Virus record (IMG/VR): IMGVR_UViG_3300009788_000240
Span: 1-30,938 of that record
Length of the DNA: 30,938 nucleotides
Direction: 5' to 3' (one strand)
Origin: a virus
A program made the translations under genes and the position numbers. This document shows positions 1 through 24,188 of this stretch, piece by piece (position 1 is the stretch's first letter; each line of letters opens with the position of its first letter). The notes under the pieces were generated by a model. The model was not told where the DNA came from. It was given only the letters and a program-made list of their open reading frames with translations, and did not search any database.

Positions 1-2662
1 AGATAAGTCAGAATTAGAACTTAAAGACAAAGCAAAATTCAGAAGAGTAATCAAAAACATTCAAACACCTGAGCAATTACAATCTAAACTCCCAGAGATT
101 CAAGAAAGAATTGTTAGTTTAGCGGAATCAAGCGAAATTAGGAGACTAAAAACTGATATCAAGAAAGAATTGAAAGCGGTAAAACCTAAAATTGTAGCAG
201 GAAAACCAATAGGAAAATTTACAGCTGATGTTCAGCGTGTTTTAGATTCTACAAGAGGAGCAATAGGACTTACTCAAATTCAAGCTGAAGAGAAAATAGA
301 TAGCAATCTTGAAAAGTATAAGTTAAAGCCAATGCCGGCAGAGATTGCGTTACAGAATAGGATTTTAAGTATGAGCTCTAGGGACGCTAAAAGTTTAAGA
401 AGTTTATTGGGTATGATTAGAAAAATGAAGGAAACAGGAGATGTAGCCTCATCTCTTAGGAAATTTAACATTCAGGAAGATTTAGATCGAAAGAAAAAAT
501 ACATTATTGACGTAGTAACTGATTATAAAGGAATAGTAAAAGGCAGAGAGACAGTCGGAAGAGCAAGAATGACTTGGAGAAGAAAAATGATTCATTCTCT
601 TAGATCTTTAGGAAATGATTTTGTTTTGAGTTGGCCAGGATTAATGCGTATTTTGGACCGGCATACTCCAGTTGATAAAAAGACCCTTAACAAAAGATTC
701 TCTGTTTTAGATCAAGATAATAAACAAAAAGAATTGCAAGAAAGTTATATTAATGACTTTAACAGAATGTTTGCTGAAATCTACGATATTCCTAATCAAA
801 CAACTAAAGATTCTTTAATGCTTCCTTTGAGAATAGGAGATGAAATTGGAAAACTTAAAAAAGAAATAAATCTTGGTACTTTTATAAACAATGTCGGAAC
901 TAAAATAGAACTTAAAATGACTAAGGACGAAATGATTAAGAGATATATGGAGTTTAAGGACCCAACACTAGAACAAAGCTTTTTACAGGGCAATTATTAC
1001 ACTAATGAGATTAAAGATGCTATTACTTCTACTCTTACGAAACAAGAGATTAGATTGGCTAATATGCAGTTAAATCTTTACAGAAAACAACATGAAAAAA
1101 TAAACCCTCTTTATCAAGAAATGTTTGGTGTAGATCTTCCTTTCAATGAGTTCTATTCTCCAATTATGAGAGAGGGATATCAAGTTGACACAAAACAAGG
1201 TTTTGAAGTCTTGTTAGACGAAGCTAATTACAGAAGAGGTGTAACGAGTAAGAGCTTTATTAGTAGAAGGAAAAACATTTTACCTATTGCTAAACAGGGT
1301 AGTCTGTACGCACTAGATAGACATATCACAGATACTAATTATTTTATAGCTTGGGCGAAGAAGGTCAGAGAATTGGATAATATCTTTTCAGATCCTAAAG
1401 TCAGGGAGTCTATCGATCAAGAATTTGGAAACAAACTATTAAGAGAAATACAGAATAGTATTGATGATATCGGTTTTAATAGAAGGACTCGTGGACAACT
1501 TCATGGAGCTGTTGATTGGTTCAGAAAGAAATTTACAATAGGTGTATTGATGTTAAAACCTGCTTTAGCTGCTAAACAATTTACGGCTACATTAGCTTAT
1601 TTAGAAGATGTGACACCAGTAGAGTTTGCATCAGGCTTTGTTGATTTTTGGAAAAACCCAATCAAGAATTACAAAATAATGGCTAAAGAAAGTGTTTTTA
1701 TTAGAACAAGAGGAACACAAGGAAATATCGAGAGAGATATCAAGGCCGCAATGAAAACTGAAGTTTATGATAGATTTTCTAAGGTCAACAGTTTTATAAA
1801 TATGGCAATGATGAATATAATGCTTGGAGATCTTGGATCTATAACAACAGGTTCCTGGATAATGAGAAGGGTAGCACTTAAAAAAGGTTTGAGTTTATCA
1901 GAAGCAGTTAGTGAATATGAAGAGTTTGGATCTGAAACACAGCAATCATCAGACATTTCCCGATTAACAGCATTTCAGAAAGGAGGAAGTTTAGAAACTC
2001 TTTTCTCAATGTTTAAGTCTAACCCAGCACAATACTTAGCCAAAGAACTTAATGCTGTTAGTAGTTTATTTCAAAAAGGAGGAACTACTCCTGCAAACTT
2101 AAAAAAGGTAGCTAAAACATTATTCATTTATCACATTTTACTACCACTTGTTTTCCAGTGGGTAAGTAATTTTGGTGGTTGGGCCGATGAAGATAACGAA
2201 GAATATAGGAGAGCTATGATTTTTGGTTCTTTAAATGGATTGTTTATTTTTGGAGACATGTTAGATTGGGCTTTGAGAAAGGCCCTAGGAATGAGAGTCT
2301 ATGAAATAGGAATACCAATAAATCAAGCTATACAAGAGGTTGGAAATGTTCTTTCTAAAATAGATTTTGACGACATAACAGCAGAAGACATGAAAGATGC
2401 TCTTGGAGAAATGGTCATGGCTAGTGAAAACTTTGGAGTTCCTGCAAAATATCTTTTAAGATTGCCTAAAGCAGTTCAAAAATTATTAGAACAAGATTGG
2501 CGAGAGGGAATAGGTTTAATGCTTGGATGGAGTGAATATATGCTAGGAATGAAAAGAAAGAGAGGGAAGAAAGGAATTCCTGGAATGCCATCCTTAAAAA
2601 TGGGAGACGTGTTAAAAAAAGAATCATTAAAAATGGAGTTACCATCATTAAAAATGCGATGA
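1..2662 (+). CDS. Large virion-associated protein, 5' end outside window
   Basis: The frame is open from base 2 with no upstream stop, so the gene begins before the window; at least 886 residues remain. A TTG at 170 lies inside an already open helical coding stretch and is not a convincing start. The protein is charged and alpha-helical, with hydrophobic stretches near residues 510-533, 704-725 and 738-758 of the visible part. Its C-terminal end has three SLKM motifs. The style (long, helical, no enzyme motif in this half, next to lysis genes) recalls the C-terminal parts of large phage polyvalent or ejected virion proteins; this is recalled family resemblance, not a search. It overlaps the endolysin gene by ATGA. 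A role in the virion or in DNA ejection is inferred. Confidence 0.6.
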   Translation, partial: DKSELELKDKAKFRRVIKNIQTPEQLQSKLPEIQERIVSLAESSEIRRLKTDIKKELKAVKPKIVAGKPIGKFTADVQRVLDSTRGAIGLTQIQAEEKIDSNLEKYKLKPMPAEIALQNRILSMSSRDAKSLRSLLGMIRKMKETGDVASSLRKFNIQEDLDRKKKYIIDVVTDYKGIVKGRETVGRARMTWRRKMIHSLRSLGNDFVLSWPGLMRILDRHTPVDKKTLNKRFSVLDQDNKQKELQESYINDFNRMFAEIYDIPNQTTKDSLMLPLRIGDEIGKLKKEINLGTFINNVGTKIELKMTKDEMIKRYMEFKDPTLEQSFLQGNYYTNEIKDAITSTLTKQEIRLANMQLNLYRKQHEKINPLYQEMFGVDLPFNEFYSPIMREGYQVDTKQGFEVLLDEANYRRGVTSKSFISRRKNILPIAKQGSLYALDRHITDTNYFIAWAKKVRELDNIFSDPKVRESIDQEFGNKLLREIQNSIDDIGFNRRTRGQLHGAVDWFRKKFTIGVLMLKPALAAKQFTATLAYLEDVTPVEFASGFVDFWKNPIKNYKIMAKESVFIRTRGTQGNIERDIKAAMKTEVYDRFSKVNSFINMAMMNIMLGDLGSITTGSWIMRRVALKKGLSLSEAVSEYEEFGSETQQSSDISRLTAFQKGGSLETLFSMFKSNPAQYLAKELNAVSSLFQKGGTTPANLKKVAKTLFIYHILLPLVFQWVSNFGGWADEDNEEYRRAMIFGSLNGLFIFGDMLDWALRKALGMRVYEIGIPINQAIQEVGNVLSKIDFDDITAEDMKDALGEMVMASENFGVPAKYLLRLPKAVQKLLEQDWREGIGLMLGWSEYMLGMKRKRGKKGIPGMPSLKMGDVLKKESLKMELPSLKMR

Positions 2663-3189
2663 ACTATTCATTAGAACAAATAAGACTCAAAATACAAATC
2701 TTTTTTCTTCAATTAAGAATTCTTATATTGAGGCAAAAGCTTACTGTTCCTAATCTTCCTGTACCTGTTGCTATAGTTGTTCACTATGACGGAACTGGGA
2801 ATAATTTCGCTTCAGTTGATAATTGGCACAAACAAAAATGGGGATTTAAAAGTAGTATAGGGTTTTATTGCGGATATCATTATTTTTTACAACTTGATTG
2901 TAAGTTATTCCAAGCAAGAGCCGACAACGAAGAAGGAGCGCATTGTGTAGAGAAAGCAAGACCTGGTTATTGGAACAAAAATTCTATAGGAGTTTGTGTA
3001 ATGGGAGATAATACAAAGTTCACAGAAGAAATGAAAGTAGAATTAAAAAAACTTTTAGATAGGCTAAGAATCAAGCACGGAATACCTTTTTCAGAGATCT
3101 ATGTTCATAAAAATATCAAACCAACAGTGTGTCCGGGTAGCAAGATAGCCAATTATATCAAGTGGTACAAAAATCAGCAGAGAAGCTAA
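2659..3189 (+). CDS. Endolysin, N-acetylmuramoyl-L-alanine amidase (Amidase_2/PGRP type)
   Basis: 176 residues. The amidase fold is recognisable: VVHYDGT (H42), GYHYF (H74), GAHC (H96), NSIGVCVMGD, and VHKNIKPTVCPG, giving probable zinc ligands H42, H150 and C158. T156 sits where T7 lysozyme has its catalytic lysine, as in peptidoglycan-recognition amidases. It would cut the amide bond between MurNAc and L-alanine in peptidoglycan to release progeny. The first 30 residues are unusually hydrophobic and basic (IFFLQLRILIL), which could be a membrane-targeting or signal-arrest segment; there is no clear cleavage site. The start overlaps the previous stop (ATGA) and there is no Shine-Dalgarno sequence. 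The holin-like gene follows after an intervening HNH gene. Confidence 0.88.
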   Translation: MNYSLEQIRLKIQIFFLQLRILILRQKLTVPNLPVPVAIVVHYDGTGNNFASVDNWHKQKWGFKSSIGFYCGYHYFLQLDCKLFQARADNEEGAHCVEKARPGYWNKNSIGVCVMGDNTKFTEEMKVELKKLLDRLRIKHGIPFSEIYVHKNIKPTVCPGSKIANYIKWYKNQQRS

Positions 3190-3223
3190 ATTAAGACGAC
3201 TAGACGATAAGCTATTAATCAAT

Positions 3224-3252
3224 TTGACACAGAACTTTAAAAGGTATATACT
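3224..3252 (+). promoter_or_regulatory. Sigma-70-type promoter upstream of HNH gene
   Basis: TTGACA at 3224-3229, 17-bp spacer, TATACT at 3247-3252. The expected transcription start (about 3259) coincides with the first base of the structured leader at 3259-3310. It resembles the promoters at 6548, 10419, 10626 and 22150. Confidence 0.75.
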
Positions 3253-3258
3253 TTAATT

Positions 3259-3310
3259 AACTGCTAGGTCTTTTTTATACAACACTCCCCGCCTAGCAGT
3301 TGGGAGTGTT
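3259..3310 (+). promoter_or_regulatory. Structured RNA leader with interleaved stems (element 1)
   Basis: Two perfect inverted repeats are interleaved: A1 AACTGCTAGG (3259-3268) pairs with A2 CCTAGCAGTT (3292-3301), and B1 AACACTCCC (3281-3289) pairs with B2 GGGAGTGTT (3302-3310). The order A1-B1-A2-B2 is pseudoknot topology, but with no linker between A2 and B2 both full stems probably cannot form together, so a bistable switch is as likely. B is followed by a T-rich run. The HNH start codon lies 13 nt after B2. A homologous element is at 5850-5897. Confidence 0.7.
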
Positions 3311-3323
3311 TAATTTTAAGATT

Positions 3324-3890
3324 ATGCCAAAAGGAATTAAGGGTTTTCAAAAAGGACATAAGTTTGGAGTAAGATTTAAAAAAGGAAAAAATAATCCTAG
3401 TTATATAGATGGAAGTTATTGCGACAATCCAAAACAATATCATGAAAAATATCAGCAAGAACATAAAAAAGATAGAAAAGAATATCAGCAAAAATATCGG
3501 CAAGAACATCGAGAACAAATAAATAAATTAAGGAGAAAATATGAAAGAGAAAGAAAAAGAAAAGACCCAAAATTTCATCTTGATGGGAATATGGCAACGG
3601 CTATATGGCTTGCACTTAAAGGAAAGAAATTTGGGGCGAGCTGGGAAACATTAGTTGGCTATACTTTAGAAAAACTAATGCAAAGACTAAGCGTAAATTT
3701 TAAAAAAGGAATGAGTTTTGAAAATTATGGCGAGTGGCATATTGATCACCGAAAGCCGAAAAGTTTATTCAAGTATAAAACAGTTGAAAACAAAGAGTTT
3801 AAAAGTTGCTGGAGCTTAGTCAACTTACAACCTCTATGGGCTTCAGATAATAAAAAGAAGTCTAATCATTATATTAATATGGTAATATAA
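3324..3890 (+). CDS. HNH endonuclease with NUMOD3-like N-terminus (homing type)
   Basis: 188 residues from the ATG at 3324. I prefer this to the in-frame TTG at 3300, which lies inside the leader repeats and would add an unrelated N-terminus. The opening MPKGIKGFQKG...KKGKNNPSYIDG resembles the NUMOD3 DNA-binding module of homing endonucleases. A charged helical repeat region (KYQQEH, KYRQEH) follows, then a C-terminal HNH-like core: EWHIDHRKPKSLF, then NLQPLWASDNKKKSN. It would nick or cut DNA at a recognition site. It sits between the endolysin and the holin-like gene with its own promoter and structured leader, which fits a mobile insertion in a lysis cassette. No SD is seen. Confidence 0.8.
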   Translation: MPKGIKGFQKGHKFGVRFKKGKNNPSYIDGSYCDNPKQYHEKYQQEHKKDRKEYQQKYRQEHREQINKLRRKYERERKRKDPKFHLDGNMATAIWLALKGKKFGASWETLVGYTLEKLMQRLSVNFKKGMSFENYGEWHIDHRKPKSLFKYKTVENKEFKSCWSLVNLQPLWASDNKKKSNHYINMVI

Positions 3891-3928
3891 AGGAATAAAG
3901 TCGATATTACAAGCCAAAAATTAGTAAA

Positions 3929-4132
3929 ATGACAAAAGCATTTTGGAAATCTAAAACAATTTGGTTTAACTTCTTGACGATCGTTATGGTTTTAGCGACA
4001 GCCATAGGTTATAAACCAAATGCAGAATTAGCAGAAAGTGTAGGAGCTTTATTAGTGGCACTAAGTCCGTTTGTGAACTTTTTCTTGAGAGTCACTACTG
4101 AAAAGAAACTAGGTGTTAAAGACGGAGAATAA
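3929..4132 (+). CDS. Holin-like small membrane protein
   Basis: 67 residues. Two hydrophobic segments are predicted by eye, about residues 12-28 (WFNFLTIVMVLATAIGY) and 38-55 (GALLVALSPFVNFFLRV), followed by a charged tail (TEKKLGVKDGE). Size, topology and closeness to the endolysin gene match small phage holins, which collect in the inner membrane and open it so that the endolysin reaches peptidoglycan. It starts at an ATG without SD, 38 bp after the HNH gene. The holin role is inferred from context and topology. Confidence 0.7.
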   Translation: MTKAFWKSKTIWFNFLTIVMVLATAIGYKPNAELAESVGALLVALSPFVNFFLRVTTEKKLGVKDGE

Positions 4133-4136
4133 TAGT

Positions 4137-4196
4137 TGTGCTATAATAAAGATGTAAGCATTTTATTTAGAAATTTCCACTTTAGGTGGATTTTTC
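4137..4196 (+). promoter_or_regulatory. Extended -10 promoter followed at once by a terminator-like hairpin
   Basis: TGTGCTATAAT gives an extended -10 (TATAAT at 4142-4147); the -35 is poor. About 25 nt after the expected start, TCCAC (4176-4180) pairs with GTGGA (4186-4190) and TTTTT follows (4191-4195). If both work, the product is an RNA of only about 43 nt with no ORF. Confidence 0.5.
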
Positions 4197-4198
4197 TA

Positions 4199-4227
4199 TT
4201 GACAGAGTGTAACAAAAGTGCTGTAAT
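4199..4227 (+). promoter_or_regulatory. Sigma-70-type promoter
   Basis: TTGACA at 4199-4204, 17 bp, TGTAAT at 4222-4227, with an extended -10 TG at 4219-4220. It lies directly after the T-tract of the preceding hairpin and leads into the next terminator-like hairpin, about 55 nt past the expected start. Confidence 0.6.
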
Positions 4228-4287
4228 TACGTCATAATAGTAAGGAGCCTTAATTGCAATTTACTAAATTAAAACAATTTGTTTTTT

Positions 4288-4311
4288 CAACTCGTTAAGG
4301 GTTGTTTTTTT
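4288..4311 (+). terminator. Rho-independent terminator-like hairpin
   Basis: CAACTC (4288-4293) pairs with GGGTTG (4299-4304) including one G-U, loop GTTAA, followed by a run of T to 4311. An upstream CCTTAA (4248-4253) can pair with TTAAGG (4295-4300), overlapping the 3' arm, so an alternative fold is possible. The tract also supplies the -35 of the next promoter. Confidence 0.55.
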
Positions 4312-4330
4312 GTTAAATTCGTGCTATGAT
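4302..4330 (+). promoter_or_regulatory. Promoter for the metallophosphoesterase gene
   Basis: TTGTTT at 4302-4307, 17 bp, TATGAT at 4325-4330 with an extended -10 (GTGCTATGAT). The same GTGCTAT context occurs at 4139 and 5833. The expected start is near 4337, leaving a short leader with a strong SD (GGAGGT at 4357-4362). Confidence 0.55.
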
Positions 4331-4372
4331 TAACATAGTTCATTAGCAATTTACTTGGAGGTGAATGATTGA

Positions 4373-5164
4373 ATGAACGAAACAATAGAAGAACTATTTA
4401 GAGGAAAACCAGACGGAATAGAATCTATAGAATACAGATGCTCTGAAGACGAGATGAAATTAATCCCTTTGGGAGATGTGCATTTAGGAGCACCTACTTG
4501 CAACATTCAGAAATTTTTAGACACTGTTACCTATATAAAAAAGTCAGGAAGTAGGGTTATCTTAATGGGAGATCTAATGGAATGTGCTTCTAAAACATCA
4601 GTTGGTGCTGGATGGGTGGAACAAGTTAATCCGCCACAGACTCAATTAAATGTTTTATATGACATCCTAGAACCTATTAAAGACCAGATAATCGTAGTCC
4701 TAGACGGTAACCATGAACATAGAATTTGGAAAAGTTCAGGAATCAAGGTTTCTGAAGTATTGGCCCAAAGACTAGGAGTTCCCTATGGCGGATATTCTTG
4801 TTTTGTTGGCTTAACAGTTGGCGGACGAAGATATGTAATACACGCCCAACACGGAAGTTCTAGTGCTTGGTATCCACACACAAAGATAACAGCTGCTATG
4901 AGGACATCAAATCATACTCTCGCAGACGTTTATCTTTATGGACATACACACGAATTAATGTCTTTGACTCTTGAGAAAAGAGAGTTGAAAAAGATCGGCA
5001 GAGGTTCACGTGTAGACAGAAAGAAAGTATATTACGTTCTTACAGGCGGATTTTTAGAGTACGAGTATTTGTACGCTGAAAGGAAAAATATGTACCCTGT
5101 GAAGACAGGCGTAGCCAAAATCAAGTTCTGTGGCGACAGATGGGATGTTCACGTTTCTACTTAG
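4373..5164 (+). CDS. Calcineurin-like metallophosphoesterase
   Basis: 263 residues with the full motif series of the metallophosphoesterase superfamily: GDVHLG (D35, H37), GDLMEC (D67), GNHEHR (N113, H114), HAQHG (H157, H160) and YGHTHE (H191, H193). These form a two-metal centre that hydrolyses phosphomono- or phosphodiester bonds. The actual substrate (nucleotide, DNA end or phosphoprotein) cannot be read from the sequence. Phages often carry such genes near DNA-metabolism functions. The start is fixed by SD GGAGGTGA about 10 nt before the ATG, a rarity in this window. It is followed by a gene with an identical SD at 13 nt. Confidence 0.85.
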   Translation: MNETIEELFRGKPDGIESIEYRCSEDEMKLIPLGDVHLGAPTCNIQKFLDTVTYIKKSGSRVILMGDLMECASKTSVGAGWVEQVNPPQTQLNVLYDILEPIKDQIIVVLDGNHEHRIWKSSGIKVSEVLAQRLGVPYGGYSCFVGLTVGGRRYVIHAQHGSSSAWYPHTKITAAMRTSNHTLADVYLYGHTHELMSLTLEKRELKKIGRGSRVDRKKVYYVLTGGFLEYEYLYAERKNMYPVKTGVAKIKFCGDRWDVHVST

Positions 5165-5177
5165 GAGGTGATAAAAA

Positions 5178-5474
5178 GTGAACGATGAAGACTACATCAA
5201 GACCATCACAATGATTTGTAATGACTACACTATTATGATGAATATGTTAAAAAGCATAAATCCAAGACAAGGAATTACTGCTAAGACATTACCCATACTA
5301 GAAATAGTCAGCAGAGTCTTTATAGGTGTGATAGCAAAGAACATTCACGCAATCTTCCAATCTAAAGCAATTCAAAATGCTATAAAAGAGGAAGGTACTA
5401 AAGACGAAGTAGGTGATGATTCAGACGAAGAAATCTATGAAGAAGATACTGACTTTCAAAATTTCTACATTTAG
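5178..5474 (+). CDS. Small acidic-tailed protein of unknown function
   Basis: 98 residues from a GTG start, chosen because a perfect AGGAGGTGAT lies 5163-5172, 5 nt upstream. The N-terminal two-thirds is helical and mixed polar; the C-terminus is strongly acidic (EVGDDSDEEIYEEDTD). I do not recognise a family. It shares the SD-dependent mini-operon of the metallophosphoesterase and the downstream HNH gene, so a shared acquisition is likely. The acidic tail could mediate protein or nucleic-acid mimicry, which is only a guess. Confidence 0.7.
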   Translation: MNDEDYIKTITMICNDYTIMMNMLKSINPRQGITAKTLPILEIVSRVFIGVIAKNIHAIFQSKAIQNAIKEEGTKDEVGDDSDEEIYEEDTDFQNFYI

Positions 5475-5486
5475 GAGGTGATTTAA

Positions 5487-5828
5487 ACGAGAAAGAAAAA
5501 GCGTCGTAAAAAACGCAGAAAAGTCAAAGGCTTCAACCATAAACAGAGACGACTTATCAGAAGAAGAGACAATTGCGAGTGTCAATTCCAAAATTGTGGT
5601 AATACTGAAAATTTACAATGTCATCATATTGTGAAAATGTCTTACGCAATTAGATTTCTGGGATGGTCCAAAGAAATGGCTAATAGCATTCAAAATGGAG
5701 TTACTATTTGTAATTCTTGTCATCGTTTTCTTCACCGCAAAAATACTTGGAAAAGGTATATAAACTATTTCCAAAAAATAGCATTATGCTATTGGGAGAA
5801 TGAACTTTCTCCCTTTCTTTATTTTTAA
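5487..5828 (+). CDS. Small HNH endonuclease, apparent ACG start
   Basis: 113 residues if started at ACG 5487. The frame opens after TAA 5484-5486. No in-frame ATG, GTG or TTG occurs before GTG 5631, which would cut off the first zinc pair of the HNH core. A perfect AGGAGGTGAT (5473-5482) sits 4 nt before the ACG, matching the spacing of the preceding GTG gene. The protein has a very basic N-terminus (RKKKRRKKRR), then RRRDNCECQFQNCGN, LQCHHIVK and NGVTICNSCHRFLH: a compact zinc-bound HNH nuclease. The 3' end is overlaid by two hairpins that look like a terminator. Alternative: a start mutation (ATG to ACG) that silenced or damped the gene. Confidence 0.7.
   Translation, partial: TRKKKRRKKRRKVKGFNHKQRRLIRRRDNCECQFQNCGNTENLQCHHIVKMSYAIRFLGWSKEMANSIQNGVTICNSCHRFLHRKNTWKRYINYFQKIALCYWENELSPFLYF
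5777..5826 (+). terminator. Double hairpin and T-tract inside the end of the HNH gene
   Basis: AATAGCA TTA TGCTATT (5777-5793) is a perfect 7-bp hairpin. GGGAGAA (5794-5800) then pairs with TTCTCCC (5807-5813), followed by a T-rich tract to 5826. The stop codon of the HNH gene lies within the T-tract. It is a good intrinsic terminator directly upstream of the next promoter. Confidence 0.7.
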
Positions 5829-5833
5829 AAGTG

Positions 5834-5842
5834 TGCTATTAT
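5834..5842 (+). promoter_or_regulatory. Extended -10 promoter for the second structured leader
   Basis: TGCTATTAT: extended -10 TG with TATTAT at 5837-5842. No good -35 (TTTCTT at the 17-bp position). The expected start, 5849-5850, coincides with the first base of the leader's stem A, as for element 1. Confidence 0.5.
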
Positions 5843-5849
5843 TATATTG

Positions 5850-5897
5850 CTGGTGAGTCTTTTATTATGTCCCGCCTGACTCACCAGTTTGGCGGGG
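5850..5897 (+). promoter_or_regulatory. Structured RNA leader with interleaved stems (element 2)
   Basis: A1 CTGGTGAGTC (5850-5859) pairs with A2 GACTCACCAG (5878-5887). B1 CCCGCC (5871-5876) pairs with B2 GGCGGG (5891-5896), extendable by one U-G pair. The order A1-B1-A2-B2 matches element 1 at 3259-3310, and GTCTTTT plus CCCGCCT are shared in the same places, while the stem A arms differ but still pair. The HNH ATG is again 13 nt downstream, and B is again followed by a T-rich run. Confidence 0.7.
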
Positions 5898-5910
5898 CTT
5901 TTAATAATAT

Positions 5911-6528
5911 ATGTTATTTAAAAAAGGAAGAAAAAAAACAGGAGGAAGAACAAGAAAAGGAAAAATACTCGTTTGTCCTATTTGTAAAAAAGAATTTTAT
6001 GTAAAACCGAGTTATATAAAGATAGGAAAGTATTGTTCTTACGAGTGTATGGGAAAATCTAGAGTAAAAGAAAAAGTAAAATTTATTTGTTATAACTGCA
6101 AGAAAGATTATTTTGTGCATTCTTCTATAGCTAAATGGAACAAAATAAGAGAACATAAACATAACTTTTGTTCTGCTAAATGTCGGCATTCTTTTTATAC
6201 TGGAGAAAACAACATCAGATGGGTAAAAGATAGAAGTAAATTAAAATGTAGACCATTAAGAAATAAAGACAATATACAATGGGTGAATAAGGTTTTCAAG
6301 AGAGACGATTATACCTGTATGTTGTGTAAAGAAAGAGGTAAAAATTTAGAAGCTCATCATGTAAAAAGATGGGTTGATTATCCAGAATTAAGATTTGAAC
6401 TAAGCAATGGAATAACTTTATGCAAGAAATGCCACCTTTTGACTAGAGGTAAAGAAAAGAATTTTGAAAAGAGGTTTAAGTCTTACATTAAGTATTTCAG
6501 ACGCAAAGTCCGAAATGCAGGGAGATAA
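5911..6528 (+). CDS. HNH endonuclease with two zinc-finger modules
   Basis: 205 residues. The N-terminus is basic (GRKKTGGRTRKGK). Two treble-clef-like zinc modules follow: CPIC...CSYEC (about residues 22-46) and CYNC...CSAKC (about 63-92). A classic HNH core comes next: RDDYTCMLCKERGKNLEAHHVKRW...NGITLCKKCH, then a basic C-terminal tail. It is a stand-alone homing-type nuclease; the zinc modules probably bind DNA. It has its own promoter and structured leader but no SD. The stop codon lies inside a perfect GGGAGATAA/TTATCTCCC hairpin that closes the unit. Confidence 0.87.
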   Translation: MLFKKGRKKTGGRTRKGKILVCPICKKEFYVKPSYIKIGKYCSYECMGKSRVKEKVKFICYNCKKDYFVHSSIAKWNKIREHKHNFCSAKCRHSFYTGENNIRWVKDRSKLKCRPLRNKDNIQWVNKVFKRDDYTCMLCKERGKNLEAHHVKRWVDYPELRFELSNGITLCKKCHLLTRGKEKNFEKRFKSYIKYFRRKVRNAGR

Positions 6529-6539
6529 AATTATCTCCC
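6520..6539 (+). terminator. Perfect 9-bp hairpin over the HNH stop codon
   Basis: GGGAGATAA (6520-6528), AA, TTATCTCCC (6531-6539). There is no strong T-run (CTATTTCTT follows), so termination is uncertain. The similar GGGAGA/TCTCCC arms at the end of the preceding HNH gene make it notable as a unit boundary. Confidence 0.5.
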
Positions 6540-6547
6540 ACTATTTC

Positions 6548-6576
6548 TTGACACTTTTTAAAAAATAAACTATACT
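6548..6576 (+). promoter_or_regulatory. Sigma-70-type promoter
   Basis: TTGACA at 6548-6553, 17 bp, TATACT at 6571-6576. It starts the structured leader 6581-6692 and the early genes from 6731. Confidence 0.78.
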
Positions 6577-6580
6577 TATG

Positions 6581-6692
6581 TAATATGCAAAATATAAAGA
6601 ATCACAATTTAATTATTGACTGCAAAGAGCAGATGATAACCTCGCAAGAGGGTGGTTTCTTTAAGCCACGCATATTATCGTTTGCTCTTTTT
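6581..6692 (+). ncRNA. Structured leader: 16-bp stem, GNRA hairpin and interleaved pairing (element 3)
   Basis: The stem 6624-6639/6675-6690 pairs 16 consecutive bases with two G-U pairs. It encloses CCTC-GCAA-GAGG (6640-6651, a GNRA tetraloop) and GTGG...CCAC (6652-6655/6666-6669), making a three-way junction. TAATATGC at 6581-6588, at the expected transcript start, is fully complementary to GCATATTA at 6670-6677, again giving order A1-B1-A2-B2. The stem ends in TTTTT, so it may also act as a terminator. There is no ORF inside. The next gene starts at 6731. Confidence 0.62.
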
Positions 6693-6730
6693 AGTTTGGA
6701 ATTAATTATTAATTATTAATTAAAAAAAAT

Positions 6731-6937
6731 ATGATAACTCAAATAAAAAGAAACTTAGCAAAAATGGGAATTGGCAACCCAATTAATAGACTTTTTTATA
6801 CTAACAGAGAAATTAATGAAATGAAAAAGCGAGGGGAATTTTTCAAAGGAAAGATAAATTGTCGCTCAGAAAATTATATTCTCGGATATACCAACGGCTA
6901 TTCTGCTGGTCGTAGGAAAGCTATGATAAATAAATAA
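6731..6937 (+). CDS. Small basic protein of unknown function
   Basis: 68 residues, basic, with no recognised domain. FYTNREINEMKKRGEFFKGK followed by ENYILGYTNGYSAGRRKAM suggests a short helix pair. It is the first gene after the promoter at 6548 and its structured leader, so probably an early gene. No SD; the ATG follows an A-rich stretch. It ends one base before the next ORF. Confidence 0.6.
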   Translation: MITQIKRNLAKMGIGNPINRLFYTNREINEMKKRGEFFKGKINCRSENYILGYTNGYSAGRRKAMINK

Positions 6938-12965: not shown

Positions 12966-13451
12966 ATGTCAGAAGAAAAAACAATTTCACAACAATTATT
13001 AGAGAAAGCAACTAAAGAAGGTAAAACTCCAATTCCTTTTTTAAGGTTAGCAATTCAAGTCAAGGGCGATGATGGTAAAAAGAAAGGAGTAAAAGGCACA
13101 GGTCCACACATCGTTAAATTTATTTCAGATAAAGCAGTTGAGATAGAAAACTATAAGACCAAAGAAAAGGAAAAAGGAGTAGAATATCTTTTTGAAAAGA
13201 ACGGACAGCAAAAGAGATACCAAAATTCAATTTATAATGAGAATGGAGAACTACATTATTTTGTAGCAAGAATGGCCGAAGTTCAAAAAGGCGAGACCAT
13301 AACTCTTGAATACAAGAAAATAGAGGGAAGTTTTAAAGGTTATAATTCAGTAGAAAGAGGAGGAGAACCTAAAGAGGAAGTTCCAGTAATTGAACAAGAC
13401 GATGAAATAAAAACTGAAGAGGAAGAAGCAATCAATTTAGATATACCCTAA
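12966..13451 (+). CDS. SSB-like single-stranded-DNA-binding protein
   Basis: 161 residues. A beta-rich core (PHIVKFISDKAVEIEN, GVEYLFEKN, YQNSIYNENGELHYF, ITLEYKKIEGS) compatible with an OB fold is followed by a linker and an acidic tail ending EEEEAINLDIP, similar to the SSB tail ending DIPF. The final Phe is missing. Position between an exonuclease gene and a NinB-like gene fits ssDNA binding during recombination or replication. Assignment rests on context and tail, not on strong sequence identity. Confidence 0.55.
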   Translation: MSEEKTISQQLLEKATKEGKTPIPFLRLAIQVKGDDGKKKGVKGTGPHIVKFISDKAVEIENYKTKEKEKGVEYLFEKNGQQKRYQNSIYNENGELHYFVARMAEVQKGETITLEYKKIEGSFKGYNSVERGGEPKEEVPVIEQDDEIKTEEEEAINLDIP

Positions 13452-13840
13452 TGAATCCAATTTTTGAAGGCAAAGTAGAAAAAGGAAAGATATTTTTAAA
13501 AGCTCCTGAAACTTTTAGAAGTTATAAAAAAACTTTTGAAGGAAAGAAAATTCAAGTAATTTTAAGAAAGTATAAGACATCAAGAAGTTTGCCTCAAAAC
13601 AATTATTATTTTGGTGTAGTAGTTAAAATGTTAGCAGACGAATTTGGCTATTCAACTCAAGAAATGCACGATGCTTTAAAGCTAGAGTTTTTAAGAAAAA
13701 CTGGGGGAATTTTAGAAACAGTTAGAAGCACTACCGATCTAACCACCACAGAGTTTGAAATGTTACTTGAGAAAATTAGAATATGGGCTTTAACAGAACA
13801 CGATGTAAAAATACCTTTGCCCAATGAGATTGAGATATGA
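13451..13840 (+). CDS. NinB-like recombination protein
   Basis: 129 residues. SRSLPQNNYYFGVVVKMLADEFGY, then EMHDALKLEFL, then STTDLTTTEFEMLLEKIRIWA and IPLPNE fit the NinB (lambda Orf) pattern of QN..Y....V..la...G...e.h..lK..fl and the later TT.L.t.eF...e.i..wA. Lambda Orf binds ssDNA and SSB and mediates recombination. Start overlaps the SSB-like stop by one base. Next gene overlaps by ATGA. Confidence 0.72.
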   Translation: MNPIFEGKVEKGKIFLKAPETFRSYKKTFEGKKIQVILRKYKTSRSLPQNNYYFGVVVKMLADEFGYSTQEMHDALKLEFLRKTGGILETVRSTTDLTTTEFEMLLEKIRIWALTEHDVKIPLPNEIEI

Positions 13841-14904: not shown

Positions 14905-14997
14905 ATGAGTAAAAAGAAAAAGCGTAAGAAGCAACACCGTCGAGATATTAGAAACCAACGCAAAAAAACGCATGTTAAAAATAAAACCTCTCAATGA
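14905..14997 (+). CDS. Very basic 30-residue peptide overlapping groES
   Basis: MSKKKKRKKQHRRDIRNQRK... with about half Lys/Arg. It ends 25 bases inside groES in another frame. The N-terminus resembles the basic start of the HNH protein at 5487, so it may be the relic of a similar gene. Translation would couple to groES. Nucleic-acid binding is likely if made. Confidence 0.4.
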   Translation: MSKKKKRKKQHRRDIRNQRKKTHVKNKTSQ

Positions 14998-15259
14998 TTT
15001 TGTATTTCTTCTATGGGAAAAGAAAAAAGAATCAAAATCAGGAATAGTATTAGCTGATGTTTCTAAATCTAGGCCTTCAAAAGCAAAGGTTATTGCTGTT
15101 GGTCCTGGCGAAATAGACAAAAGTGGAAAATTTAGGAAAGTTAATTTGAAAGTAGGAGATATTATTATTTTAGATCCGTTTATACCACAATCAATTAAGG
15201 TAGATGGAGAAGAGTATCTTGTTTGTCGAGAGAGAGATATATTTGCTAAGATATCTTAA
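14972..15259 (+). CDS. groES: GroES co-chaperonin (Cpn10)
   Basis: 95 residues, the usual Cpn10 length. Opening IKPLNDFVFL corresponds to the family's 'i.PL.DRV.v'; the mobile loop (about 17-32) carries GIVLADV, where IVL binds the GroEL apical domain. AKVIAVGPGE and VGDIIILDPF...IKVDGEEYLVCRERDIFA complete the barrel. It would form the lid of the phage or host chaperonin. The usual E of 'KEEKTAGGIVL' is replaced by a Lys/Ser-rich loop. Followed after 2 bases by an HNH gene, then the groEL locus. Confidence 0.93.
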   Translation: MLKIKPLNDFVFLLWEKKKESKSGIVLADVSKSRPSKAKVIAVGPGEIDKSGKFRKVNLKVGDIIILDPFIPQSIKVDGEEYLVCRERDIFAKIS

Positions 15260-15261
15260 AA

Positions 15262-15795
15262 ATGCCAAAAGGAATTCCAAAGAGTGGAAAAAACAAAGGG
15301 TGGTTTAAGAAAGGAGATAAGATAAATCTGGGGAAAGTAACAACAGAAAAAACTAAGCAGAAATTAAGAAAAATAAATATAGGTAGGAAACATACTAAAA
15401 AAGTAAAAAAGAAAATAGCTCAGTCTTCTAAAAAAAGATGGAAAAACCCAGAATATAAGAAGAGAGTTAGCAAGAAAATTAGCGAGGCGTTGAAAGGGAA
15501 GAAATGCCCGTGGGCTACTCCTCCACATTATCGGGGAAGTAAAAATCCAGCTTGGAAAGGAGGTGTTACCACCGAAAATGATAAAATAAGAAGGAGTATT
15601 GAATATCGACTATGGAGAGAATCAGTCTTTGCGAGGGATAATTGGACTTGCCAGGAGTGTGGAAAAAGAAAATTGATACTAAACGCACATCACATTAAAA
15701 GTTTTGCAAGAAACAAAAAATTGAGAACATCTATAGAAAATGGCGTTACATTATGTCGAAAATGCCATATAGAAGTTCATAAAAATATAAACTAA
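15262..15795 (+). CDS. HNH homing endonuclease with NUMOD3 repeats, between groES and groEL
   Basis: 177 residues. MPKGIPKSGKNKGWFKKGDK, then several Ser/Lys-rich NUMOD3-like repeats (INIGRKHTKKVKKK, ISEALKGKK), a GSKNPAWKGG turn, and the HNH core WTCQECGKRKLILNAHHIKSFA...NGVTLCRKCHIEVH. This is the layout of phage homing endonucleases. It is inserted in the same operon as groES and groEL with no own promoter or leader seen, unlike those at 3324 and 5911. Confidence 0.88.
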   Translation: MPKGIPKSGKNKGWFKKGDKINLGKVTTEKTKQKLRKINIGRKHTKKVKKKIAQSSKKRWKNPEYKKRVSKKISEALKGKKCPWATPPHYRGSKNPAWKGGVTTENDKIRRSIEYRLWRESVFARDNWTCQECGKRKLILNAHHIKSFARNKKLRTSIENGVTLCRKCHIEVHKNIN

Positions 15796-15800
15796 AAAAC

Positions 15801-16094
15801 ATGGAAGAAAAAAAAGAACAAGTAATTCAATTAAGTGTCTTAGATGGATTAAGAGCATTTCATAATACACATTTAGAGAAGTTTTTGACTCATAAAATAA
15901 ACGCAATTTATTACTCTGAAATGAAACCTAATGATGTTGCAAAAATAATGATGATACCAAGTGGTAATCCACAACTACCACCTACAAGAAGAGATATTAA
16001 GGCAAAAGATGCTTTAACTGAGGCAACAAAAGCAAGAAATCATCAAGATCATATTTTAAGAATTATTAAACGTTTGATTAAAGAAGAAAAATGA
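15801..16094 (+). CDS. Small hypothetical protein before groEL
   Basis: 97 residues, MEEKKEQVIQLSVLDGLRAFHNTHLEKFL... with a central PSGNPQLPPTRRDIKA loop and helical ends; no Cys. It overlaps groEL by ATGA, so it is translated together with it. No family recognised; a chaperonin adaptor or substrate is conceivable but unsupported. Confidence 0.62.
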   Translation: MEEKKEQVIQLSVLDGLRAFHNTHLEKFLTHKINAIYYSEMKPNDVAKIMMIPSGNPQLPPTRRDIKAKDALTEATKARNHQDHILRIIKRLIKEEK

Positions 16095-17680
16095 ACAAAC
16101 AAATACTATTTTCTGACGAGGCTAGAAAGAAGCTTCAAAAAGGAGTAGACATTCTATCTAATGCAGTCAAGGTTACTTTAGGACCTAAAGGAAGAGTGGT
16201 CGCTTTCAAAAAAGGAACTTCTACTTTTTCATTAGACGGAGTTACTGTGGCTAATAATGTAGAACTGAAAGACCCTGTTGAAGCTATGGGCTGTGATTTA
16301 GTCAAAGATATAGCTAACAAGACTGATAAGGAAGCAGGAGACGGAACCACGACGGCTACAATTCTTGCTCAACATATTTTAAAAGAAGGATTAAAAGCTA
16401 TGGCCGCAGGTGTAGATGTAATTGAGTTAAAGAAAGGTTTGCTTATGGGTTTAGAAATAGCAGTAGGAACAATTAAAAAGATGGCCAAGCCACTCACTAA
16501 AGATAAAGATGTCGAGAGTGTAGGAACTATCGCCTCAAGGGATGCTAAGATTGGAAGAACTATTGCAGATATTATTAAAAAGATTGGTAAAGACGCAATT
16601 ATAGCAGTAGAAGAATCTCATACTATTGGACTCCAGCAAGAGATAGTCAAAGGACTTCAGATTGATAAAGGTTTTATTTCTCCATACATGATAACTCATC
16701 CCGAGAGAATGGAGACTATTATAGAAAAACCTTATATATTAGTAACATCTCAAGCAATCAGCACTAACGAAGAAATCATTGGAGTATTAGACGAAGTTTA
16801 TGGAGCTGATAATAAAGCTCTTTTAATTATAGCTGATGACGTTTCCGGTGAAGCATTGCCTACTGTTGTTTTAAACAAGATTAGAGGAAAACTTAGAATT
16901 GCAGCAGTTAAAGCTCCAGGTTATGGAAATGACAAACAAAACAAACTACAAGACATTTCTATTCTTACAGGAGCTAAGTTAATTACTGAAGAAATAGGAA
17001 TAAAAGTTGAAGATGTAGGATTAACTGAATTAGGGCAAGCCGATAGAGTAATTATAAGTAAAGACAAAACTACAATTATTGGAGGTGGAGGCAGTAAGTC
17101 AGCAATCAATAAAAGGATCAAAGAGTTAACTTTAGCAATGAAGAAAGAAGAATCAGACTATCAGAAAGAATTATTGAAAAAGAGAATTGCTAAACTTAAA
17201 GGTGGTATTGCTATAATTAAAGTAGGAACAATCTCTGAACAAGAGAACAAAGAAAAGAGATACAGAATTGAAGACGCAGTTCGAGCTACAATGTCAGCAA
17301 TCGAGGAAGGAATTGTACCTGGCGCTGGAATGACCCTGATTCAAGCTTCGAAAGAAATAGAAAAGAAAATGTTATTAGAAAAGAATATGAGTACAAGACT
17401 AGGATTAGGAATTTTATACAACGCAATCAGAGAACCAGCCAAGCAGATTATTCTTAACGCAGGAGGTAAGCCAGATGTTATATTAGAAAAGACAAAAGAC
17501 AGTGTGTCAAGAGGTTATAATTCAGCAACAGGAGAATATGTTGATTTACTAAAGGCAGGAATAATAGACCCAGCAAAAGTTGTAAGAGTAGCATTAGAAA
17601 ATGCAGTGAGTGTAATTTCTCTATTCTTAATAACAGAGGTTGTAATAGTCGATTTACCAGAGGAAAAAGATAAAAAATAA
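16091..17680 (+). CDS. groEL: GroEL chaperonin (Cpn60)
   Basis: 529 residues against 548 in E. coli. [23 protein letters not shown] (D49, cf. D52), [12 protein letters not shown] (D84, cf. D87), a full apical domain ([47 protein letters not shown]) and [23 protein letters not shown] (cf. D398) show an intact ATPase and hinge. In the apical substrate site, E. coli Y199 and F204 are replaced by Phe and Met. The C-terminal GGM repeat tail is missing; it ends LPEEKDKK. It would assemble the folding chamber with the GroES at 14972. Start overlaps the previous stop (ATGA). Confidence 0.96.
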
Positions 17681-22004: not shown

Positions 22005-22170
22005 AGAAGAAATAATTAAAGAGGAAGTTAAAGTATTATTAGAAAAGGGCTTCTTTGATTTGAAGAGTGGCCAAGTTATAATTGATAAACATAATGGATT
22101 AATTCAAGACATGACATTCGTTACTAAACCCTATAAAAGGAAGAAAGACTTGACAAGAAAAACTGAATAA
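21997..22170 (+). CDS. Small hypothetical protein overlapping terL end
   Basis: 57 residues from ATG 21997, which overlaps the terL end by 8 bases; an in-frame TTG at 21982 would lengthen it without need. Helical, charged, basic C-terminus (TKPYKRKKDLTRK). Its 3' end holds the TTGACA of the promoter at 22150. Function unknown. Confidence 0.55.
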   Translation: MTKEEIIKEEVKVLLEKGFFDLKSGQVIIDKHNGLIQDMTFVTKPYKRKKDLTRKTE

Positions 22171-22178
22171 ACTATAAT
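22150..22178 (+). promoter_or_regulatory. Sigma-70-type promoter of the head operon
   Basis: TTGACA at 22150-22155, 17 bp, TATAAT at 22173-22178: a perfect consensus. Expected start near 22185, leading into the hairpin before the portal gene. Confidence 0.8.
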
Positions 22179-22230
22179 GTAATAAATCTAAGCCCTAACC
22201 ACGGACGGAAAATAAAAATCCAAATCCACG

Positions 22231-22283
22231 GCGGGCAGAGGATAGAATAGTAAACTGCTATTTTGTCCTTTGCTCGCTTTTTT
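22231..22283 (+). terminator. 20-bp terminator-like hairpin just before the portal start
   Basis: 22231-22250 pairs with 22258-22277 without interruption (20 bp, four G-U pairs), loop TAAACTG, followed by TTTTTT; the portal ATG begins at 22287. Upstream GGAC-GG-AAAATA (22203-22214) can pair with TATTTTGTCC (22259-22268) in the 3' arm, an alternative fold that would undo the hairpin. Confidence 0.72.
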
Positions 22284-22286
22284 ATT

Positions 22287-24188
22287 ATGATTGATATTTC
22301 AAATCTAAGTGATACAAGATTAAAACGTCTGATTAATAACAGGTGGACTTCTTTAGATAAGTCGTCAGCGATAATTACTGAGACCTATAAGAAGAATAAG
22401 AGAGTATGGCAAAATGATGATTCGGTTGTAGCGACCATTCCTAGAAAGAAGTCTAGAGTTAGAGACAATAGAGTATTCTTAGCAGTTGAAAGTGTAATAG
22501 GAAATCTTACTGGAAGACCATCAAAGCCAAATGTCTTACCAGGTAACGAAAGTCCTGAATCAGGACAAGTAGCGACAGACTTAACTGATGTCTTTTTAGA
22601 GAAATACCGAACTTTAAAGCTAAAAAAGAAAGTAAGAAGAGGTTTAAGATGGTTGTTATTATCAAGAAAAATAGTTCTTAAAAACATTTGGAATAATGAT
22701 AAAGATGACTTTGACCTTGCAGTAGTAGATCCTAGAAGTATAAGATTTAGTGAAAATGGTGATGTCGTAGAACAGATAGACACTGACATAGACACTATGT
22801 TGGATAGGTTTCCTGACAAAGTAGAAGAGATCTTGAAAAAAGCAGGTGGAAGAAAGAATGAAATTGATGCGAGAATTAAGAATGACCCTGTTTCATATAA
22901 AGAAGCTTGGTTAGGAGATTGGGTTGTTCATGAGTTTAGAGGGGAAATTTTAAAGAAAGAGTTAAATCCTTATTGGGATTGGGATGGAGTATTCTTTGAT
23001 AAGGATGAAATGAGAAAATTTGATAAAGCCAAGATGAAAGAAAGAAAGAAACTTTTAGTAAGTGCAAGAGGAACAAGAGAAGGAAGAGTTACCGAGATGA
23101 AGAAAGAAAAGAAAGCCGATAAGTATCAACAATACCTTTTCAATCATTTTGATAAACCAACTCATCCATACATTTGCGCAACAATGTTGGATGTAGAAAA
23201 GAAAGAAGTAGGAGAAACTTCGTTAATAGAACAAGTTTTATCTCTACAAGAAAATATCAACAAGAGAAAGAGACAGATTTCAGATAACGCTGCATCAGCC
23301 AATGGAAGATGGAAGATAGATACGAAGCACATGGAATTAAAGAGCAAAGGAGAGTGGCAAGCAATGAAATCAGACCCAGAAGGAATGATTATCGGAGATG
23401 GAGTAGGAATGGGTGTAACGATAGAAAGTGGAAGAGATTTACCTAATATGGTGACAGAAGATCTAGTAATGTCTATTCAATCACTAGAGTCTATATTTGG
23501 AACTCAAGCAACAATGAGAGGAGAGAGAGAGGGATCTGAAACGGCCACAGGTAGAGCTATATTAAGAGAAAGAGGCTTCCAAAGATTAAACGAACTCGTT
23601 GACGTGGTAGACACACTTCACCTTGAAATCTACAATTGGCAGTTACAGTTCATGAAGATTAATTATACTGAAAGCCACTACACTAAGTTACTAGGAAAGG
23701 AAACAGCCATGAGAGTGATAGAAATAATGCAAGACAACCTTGAAGATGGAATCGAGATAAAGGTAATTCCAGGCCAAATAATGCCAGTAGATAGAGTTTA
23801 TAGAGCAGAAACAGCGAAAGAACTAGTAGTTGCAGGAATGATAACACCACTACAATACTTCGAGGCAGCTGAATTTGATAACCCAATGGAGACTGCAAAA
23901 CAGATTGAAATGTATAAGGTTAGCCCATTTTCAATTCTTGAATTAGATCCTGAAGATATAGAAAATATGAAAGATGGAATAGCATTATTACAGGAATTGG
24001 CTCAAGCGGCTCAACCAACAGACGAAAGAGCTACTGCAATTGCAGAACTTAGAAAGAAAACAGATGAGATAGTAAAGAATCCTGAATTTAAGAAGAAATC
24101 ACCTAAAGAACAGCAAGAGATATTAAGCAAGTTAAAGATGCAATTTAAGAATTTATCAAAAGCTAAACCGAAAGAGGAAACTAAATAA
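22287..24188 (+). CDS. Portal protein
   Basis: 633 residues from ATG 22287. The in-frame TTG at 22263 lies in the 3' arm of the hairpin and is disfavoured. Portal features: an N-terminal region with VESVIGNLTGRPSKPNVLPG, a wing (VVDPRSIRF, WVVHEFRG), a helical stem with SLIEQVLSLQENINKRKRQISDNAASANGRW-like spacing, and TMRGEREGSETATGRAILRERG (a motif common in podovirus-like portals), then a helical C-terminus. It forms the dodecameric ring for DNA passage, next to the terminase and scaffold genes. Confidence 0.78.
   Translation: MIDISNLSDTRLKRLINNRWTSLDKSSAIITETYKKNKRVWQNDDSVVATIPRKKSRVRDNRVFLAVESVIGNLTGRPSKPNVLPGNESPESGQVATDLTDVFLEKYRTLKLKKKVRRGLRWLLLSRKIVLKNIWNNDKDDFDLAVVDPRSIRFSENGDVVEQIDTDIDTMLDRFPDKVEEILKKAGGRKNEIDARIKNDPVSYKEAWLGDWVVHEFRGEILKKELNPYWDWDGVFFDKDEMRKFDKAKMKERKKLLVSARGTREGRVTEMKKEKKADKYQQYLFNHFDKPTHPYICATMLDVEKKEVGETSLIEQVLSLQENINKRKRQISDNAASANGRWKIDTKHMELKSKGEWQAMKSDPEGMIIGDGVGMGVTIESGRDLPNMVTEDLVMSIQSLESIFGTQATMRGEREGSETATGRAILRERGFQRLNELVDVVDTLHLEIYNWQLQFMKINYTESHYTKLLGKETAMRVIEIMQDNLEDGIEIKVIPGQIMPVDRVYRAETAKELVVAGMITPLQYFEAAEFDNPMETAKQIEMYKVSPFSILELDPEDIENMKDGIALLQELAQAAQPTDERATAIAELRKKTDEIVKNPEFKKKSPKEQQEILSKLKMQFKNLSKAKPKEETK

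Follow-up and report, generated by a model that had tools for sequence, protein, structure and literature searches.

What is the function of two short structured segments that lie between promoter and start codon of two HNH genes in the viral record IMGVR_UViG_3300009788_000240? The stretch analysed here, referred to as the window (30,938 nucleotides (nt)), is part of the genome of an uncultured phage, and this 31-kb fragment carries genes for amidase, metallophosphoesterase, NinG, terminase, portal and capsid. An earlier note, made from these letters, had described the segments as homologous promoter-leader units and read them as an RNA switch or the end of a homing unit. The present analysis leaves very little doubt that a structured, conserved RNA leader of HNH genes is real, and comparison of its copies gives good support to an RNA whose two stems conflict with each other. 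The leader probably sets the amount of HNH endonuclease made, and we lean towards a promoter-proximal attenuator, in which hairpin A would be an early antiterminator and hairpin B a weak-to-moderate terminator.

Two leaders with interleaved stems

Element 1 (3259-3310; on the plus strand, as are element 2, the genes behind both and the third attenuator described below) lies behind the promoter TTGACA-17 nt-TATACT (3224-3252), which matches the consensus at 11 of 12 positions and ends 6 nt upstream of the first arm, a layout found alike in the homologues. Arm A1 (3259-3268) begins at the expected transcription start and pairs at 10 of 10 base pairs (bp) with arm A2 (3292-3301), with covariation in the homologues. 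Arm B1 (3281-3289) forms 9 of 9 bp with arm B2 (3302-3310), which is directly followed by TAATTTTAAG, a weak U-rich stretch with a terminator score of -33. The gene that follows (3324-3890, ATG at 3324) encodes an endonuclease VII-like HNH protein of 188 amino acids (phrog_1035, E 7e-9). Element 2 (5850-5898) has the same arm order. Its promoter, as read from the sequence, is an extended -10 (TGcTATTAT, 5834-5842) with a poor -35, and its A1 (5850-5859) again pairs at 10 of 10 bp with A2 (5878-5887). A loop AUG (5867-5869), found at the same place in eight of the nine copies, lies immediately upstream of B1 (5869-5876, GTCCCGCC), which forms eight pairs, one of them G-U, with B2 (5891-5898, GGCGGGGC); the latter is followed by TTTTAATAAT and has a terminator score of +5.7. 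The HNH gene behind element 2 (5911-6528, ATG at 5911) encodes 205 amino acids (PF01844, E 2.4e-6), and a protein search with its product returned no relatives.

Much of the earlier description could be confirmed. A scan of the window for interleaved perfect stems (arms of at least 8 and at least 6 bp) returned the two A1-B1-A2-B2 elements as the only pairs, with element 1 also detected on the minus-strand reading. The two HNH proteins are indeed quite different, showing no detectable similarity to each other (BLASTP E = 2.6). The 13-nt gap that had been proposed between B2 and the ATG is found in this pair, depending on how the terminal G-U of stem B is treated in element 2. It does not extend to the homologues, in which B2 and the start codon are about 6-25 nt apart. 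The GTCTTTT and CCCGCCT patches occupy structurally different places in the two copies and are only partly conserved in the others. A family signature consisting of GTCTTTWWTWWW...CCCGCC and a -10 was also tried and rejected: only one of its matches, L015, was real and the others were chance, so that the patches cannot serve to define the family.

The simplest alternative is that these are chance inverted repeats, since the region is AT-rich and has many short ones. We regard this as practically negligible. No interleaved pair was found at the stricter cut-off in 20 Markov-shuffled windows, and the homologues refute it, together with the covariation described below.

Homologues and covariation

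Seven homologues were identified on six other viral contigs, which brings the total to nine copies. Three of them were reached via contigs that share relatives of the metallophosphoesterase gene: L015 (about 2617-2677, plus strand), which precedes a NUMOD3-HNH gene, and two copies on the minus strand of L086, a metallophosphoesterase-related contig (L086a at 1756 and L086b at 3013). The other four, L131, L149, L160 and L181, come from a scan of IMG/VR with a pattern made of promoter and AUG motif only, which is blind to stems and to HNH genes. At least 120 stretches matched, and among the matches listed the interleaved stems were in place in 4 of the 119 stretches scanned, compared with 0.03 expected from shuffles. 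A similar pattern gave 117 matches in bacterial genomes, none with interleaved stems, and 380 genomes of Patescibacteria (the phylum of L289) contained one pattern match, in L289's own genome, without the stems. Among 50 HNH-bearing viral records there was one pattern match and no confirmed leader, and none of the relatives of the HNH protein at 3324 found by protein search carried one. At the DNA level, the window stretch 3190-6560 and three homologue leaders showed no similarity to phage or plasmid records.

Stem cores cut by hand, 9 bp of A and 6 bp of B, served for the covariation count, because MAFFT placed A1 unreliably in full-length alignments; seven copies were scored by a tool and nine by a script. 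Across the nine copies, 135 of 135 core cells are paired. It counts against this figure that the copies were chosen partly for perfect pairing, so the percentage paired is not independent evidence, and it is the number and variety of pair types that are informative. When 3' arms were swapped between copies, the mean number of paired cells was 34.8 of 81 for A and 39.0 of 54 for B, and every A1 pairs best with its own A2. In the seven gap-free copies, 12 of the 15 pairs have changed on both sides, and in 34 cells both partners differ. For covariation, the score is 0.990, compared with 0.253 after shuffling (reached in 0 of 500 shuffles), and sliding the partners abolishes the signal. The proposal that the arms differ between copies yet keep pairing by compensatory change thus holds for the nine copies, and the check put forward in the earlier note, a search for homologues before HNH genes with covarying arms, came out positive.

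A sigma70-like promoter is found in all nine copies and ends 6-13 nt upstream of A1, which puts A1 on the expected transcription start or in its immediate vicinity, as had been claimed. In seven copies TTGACA is separated from the -10 by 16-18 nt; the -10 is TATACT in element 1 and GATAAT in L086b, and element 2 has the extended -10 only. In L131, the promoter overlaps the end of the preceding gene, which stops 32 nt upstream of A1. Since the scan pattern required a consensus promoter and an AUG, the four copies found with it are no evidence for either feature; among the five copies outside this selection, a strong promoter is present in four and the AUG likewise in four. The better-kept primary features are a U-rich loop that ends in an AUG just before B1, a C-rich B1 and a UUU-AA-rich stretch after B2.

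An HNH gene is located downstream in eight of the nine copies, the exception being L086b, which precedes a small open reading frame without an HNH domain; none of the searches that yielded the homologues used an HNH criterion. The downstream genes of L131 and L160 combine NUMOD3 with a weak HNH match. Neither Pfam nor PHROGs gave a match for those of L149 and L181, which can be called HNH-type only through their similarity to the protein at 3324 (39% and 46% identity, respectively). The HNH genes belong to several types, at least three of them unrelated, and no relative of the window phage terminase, portal or capsid was detectable on the L131, L149, L160 and L181 contigs. Leader and HNH gene thus recur jointly in seemingly unrelated phages, for which reason the leader resembles the 5' part of a mobile cassette. 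To this extent the homing-unit reading appears sound, while the role of a recombination end is unsupported.

The joint recurrence would also be expected if the segment acted as DNA, with the arms serving as cruciforms or protein sites of an operator, a homing site or a recombination end. There is a precedent in I-TevI, which represses its own promoter via an operator located there (PMC2988022). Yet the arm sequences diverge widely and the pairing is kept, which is more in line with a folded strand than with a recognition sequence for a protein. No matching 3' end was seen, although no search was aimed at one. We consider a DNA-level element the least probable of the functional readings.

Folding, termination and translation

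In the nine copies, the spacing between A2 and B2 is 0-5 nt and stem A measures 9-14 bp, from which it can be inferred that both helices cannot fully coexist; a steric limit on short loops is a general feature of pseudoknot geometry. The arm order A1-B1-A2-B2 is that of an H-type pseudoknot, and a stable, complete one is unlikely on the same grounds. Forms A and B are similar in energy. In minimum-energy folds of the growing transcript, which are thermodynamic and not kinetic simulations, form A prevails until B2 is complete or at most 3 nt from completion and is then replaced by form B in eight of the nine copies. In form B, a small inner hairpin closed by the A2 segment leads to a compact hairpin with UUU-AA-rich sequence directly after it, and U-rich sequence is found 0-3 nt downstream of B2 in every copy.

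The late hairpins combine stable stems with U-rich tails. Termination was assessed with a score of the d'Aubenton Carafa type, for which the 99th percentile of random windows is -38. All copies score above this value: L131 reaches +10 and element 2 +6, L086a, L160 and L181 lie between -4 and 0, and the others between -13 and -33. Such values fit weak or partial termination, that is, attenuation of a strong promoter. Moreover, the U-rich sequence stays at B2 while the start codon drifts over the range given above, for which reason termination is preferred over masking of the start site.

On this basis, leader and HNH gene would form a self-contained mobile cassette that consists of a strong promoter, a structured RNA of about 50-65 nt and a homing-type endonuclease gene. 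RNA polymerase would initiate at A1 and, once A2 has emerged, hairpin A would fold as the antiterminator, enclosing the U-rich loop with its AUG and then B1. The emerging B2 would compete for B1, and the B1:B2 pairing would create a GC-rich hairpin followed by a U-rich stretch, a weak-to-moderate intrinsic terminator just upstream of the endonuclease start codon. The contest between A and B would thereby set the share of transcripts that reach the endonuclease gene, so that little nuclease is made despite the strong promoter. A ribosome settling on the AUG beside B1 would at most cover B1 and hold the terminator open; the leader peptide is not conserved, as the frames after the AUG range from 5 to more than 50 codons, and each of the three phases with respect to the gene is represented. 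The RNA switch is the best part of the earlier reading, while the switching itself, including mutual exclusion of A and B in the cell and termination by B, is inferred from sequence. Several points weigh against attenuation: L181 keeps A as the better fold, seven of the nine terminator scores are below zero with only two clearly positive, and the U-runs are short (UUUAA).

A promoter, a compact structure and a terminator-like end also make a complete unit for a small regulatory RNA of roughly 55-60 nt ending after B2, which could act in trans, for example on the same leader of an incoming phage, and whose arm sequences are private to each copy. Such an independent RNA would have no need to directly precede an HNH gene, as eight of the nine copies do, and the terminators look leaky; we therefore deem it improbable. 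A similarly long shot is the idea that bistable mobile leaders with private arms provide RNA-based self-recognition, whereby the terminated leader of a resident would silence the endonuclease of the same cassette on an incoming phage.

More weight is due to translational control of the kind described for phage T4, although we still consider it rather unlikely. Here the leader would either mask the region around the HNH start codon or leave it free. In RNA read through from upstream genes, the -10 region (C1) would pair with the AU-rich start region, C2; RNA begun at the leader's own promoter would lack C1 and be translated, and A and B would tune access further. In element 2, L131, L149, L160 and L181, the -10 flank is perfectly complementary over 8-13 bp to the sequence ahead of the start codon, with both sides of C changed together in L160 and element 2. 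Such an outer stem is possible only in transcripts initiated upstream, the layout established for I-TevI, segB and mobE (PMC2988022, PMC3014915). On the other hand, C is lacking in element 1, L015 and both L086 copies, so that the outer stem is optional in the family or partly due to chance, and across all nine copies a copy's own C pairs barely beat swapped ones (8.3 versus 6.5 bp). Furthermore, a Shine-Dalgarno sequence at suitable spacing is lacking in most copies, and B2 stands at no fixed distance from the start codon.

Related leaders and known systems

Further leaders of this general kind were noted in the window and in related contigs. A third attenuator with the A1-B1-A2-B2 order (6548-6690, promoter TTGACA-17-TATACT) is of a different build and falls outside the HNH leader family. 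Its early stem is 6583-6588/6670-6675 and its late stem, with a T-run, is about 6624-6639/6675-6690; it has nested hairpins and a TTTTT tail and precedes an open reading frame of 68 amino acids. At the portal leader (22150-22290), a very strong terminator-like hairpin comes after a strong promoter, and its T-run ends 2-5 nt before the ATG. A related contig (L083, minus strand, 6060) shows the promoter-terminator-portal layout as well, and its TAAGCCCT..ACC leader is similar; the arrangement suggests antitermination of late genes. Promoter-proximal terminator-like hairpins, several with competing early stems, are thus found at 6548-6690 and 22150-22285 of the window and in L014 (13376), L088 (minus strand, 16796), L089 (19018) and L083 (minus strand, 6060), and the group of the window phage may commonly use attenuation right behind strong promoters. 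Among these attenuator-like leaders, it is the HNH leader for which clear homologues exist.

The L014 example (13344-13460) has three stems in the order A1-B1-C1-A2-B2-C2, a Shine-Dalgarno sequence and a GTG-started leader frame of 22 codons that ends in Cys-Trp, and the L088 example has four interleaved stems with a T-run at the end. A second leader type, common to L013 (945-1012) and L056 (3890-3954) and also seen in L084 and L099, consists of a hairpin with a TCCTTG loop and then interleaved stems; in L013 and L056 the A2-B2 spacing is 0-1 nt and the leader lies about 20 nt upstream of a non-HNH gene. L012 (about 3970-4001) has a different HNH leader, a TTGACTC...GAGTCAA hairpin around the Shine-Dalgarno sequence just before the ATG, which resembles known translational hairpins. 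With regard to the HNH genes of these phages, the metallophosphoesterase gene is split by them at two different sites (L016, 9380-9990; L017, 1620-2442). The L016 insert resembles a group I intron, with no match in Rfam, and its HNH promoter is very near the ATG, so that the mRNA would be almost leaderless. In the window, an HNH gene at 15262 lies between adjacent GroES-like and GroEL-like open reading frames (14972-17680, read by eye), and the GroEL on the L131 contig is 40% identical to the GroEL-like product.

No match was found in Rfam 15 at the gathering score in the window, at E 1 in the stretch 3190-6760, or at E 0.5 in five homologue loci. Full-text searches of a limited set of open papers, which leaves most subscription papers outside, also turned up no description of such a leader. 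The earlier note had brought up the HEARO/omega-RNA of IscB as a precedent. It is likewise a non-coding RNA that adjoins an HNH gene, but the comparison fails, since the present leaders are much shorter and have no Rfam match; the HNH proteins, as the note had remarked, have no apparent RuvC part. The likeness to transcription attenuators, as generally defined in PMC3369936, lies in an early and a late hairpin that would exclude each other, with U-rich sequence between the latter and the gene. In contrast to other attenuators, the present leaders are very small (50-65 nt), with the first arm at or near the first transcribed base, and have short U-runs, no conserved leader peptide and no aptamer that could be seen. 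They would also add a new family to the known RNAs and, as very small bistable molecules of natural origin, would be of use in work on co-transcriptional folding.

How free-standing homing endonucleases are controlled in their expression is best known for T4-like phages, in which many have been described as promoter-less cassettes (PMC2988022). One compact promoter-leader used by unrelated HNH genes and phages makes it directly testable whether control of expression moves with the endonuclease. Among known systems, the closest is the RNA-based control of T4-type homing endonucleases; it acts on translation and relies on a single hairpin over the ribosome binding site (PMC2988022, PMC3014915). 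I-TevI, I-TevII, I-TevIII, T4 segB and Aeh1 mobE are likewise phage endonucleases limited by RNA structure at the start region, with the promoter inside the structure, and the outer stem of element 2, L131, L149, L160 and L181 is comparable. The present leaders differ in that two interleaved, competing stems lie downstream of the transcription start, masking is not general, and one leader type is common to unrelated HNH genes in unrelated phages.

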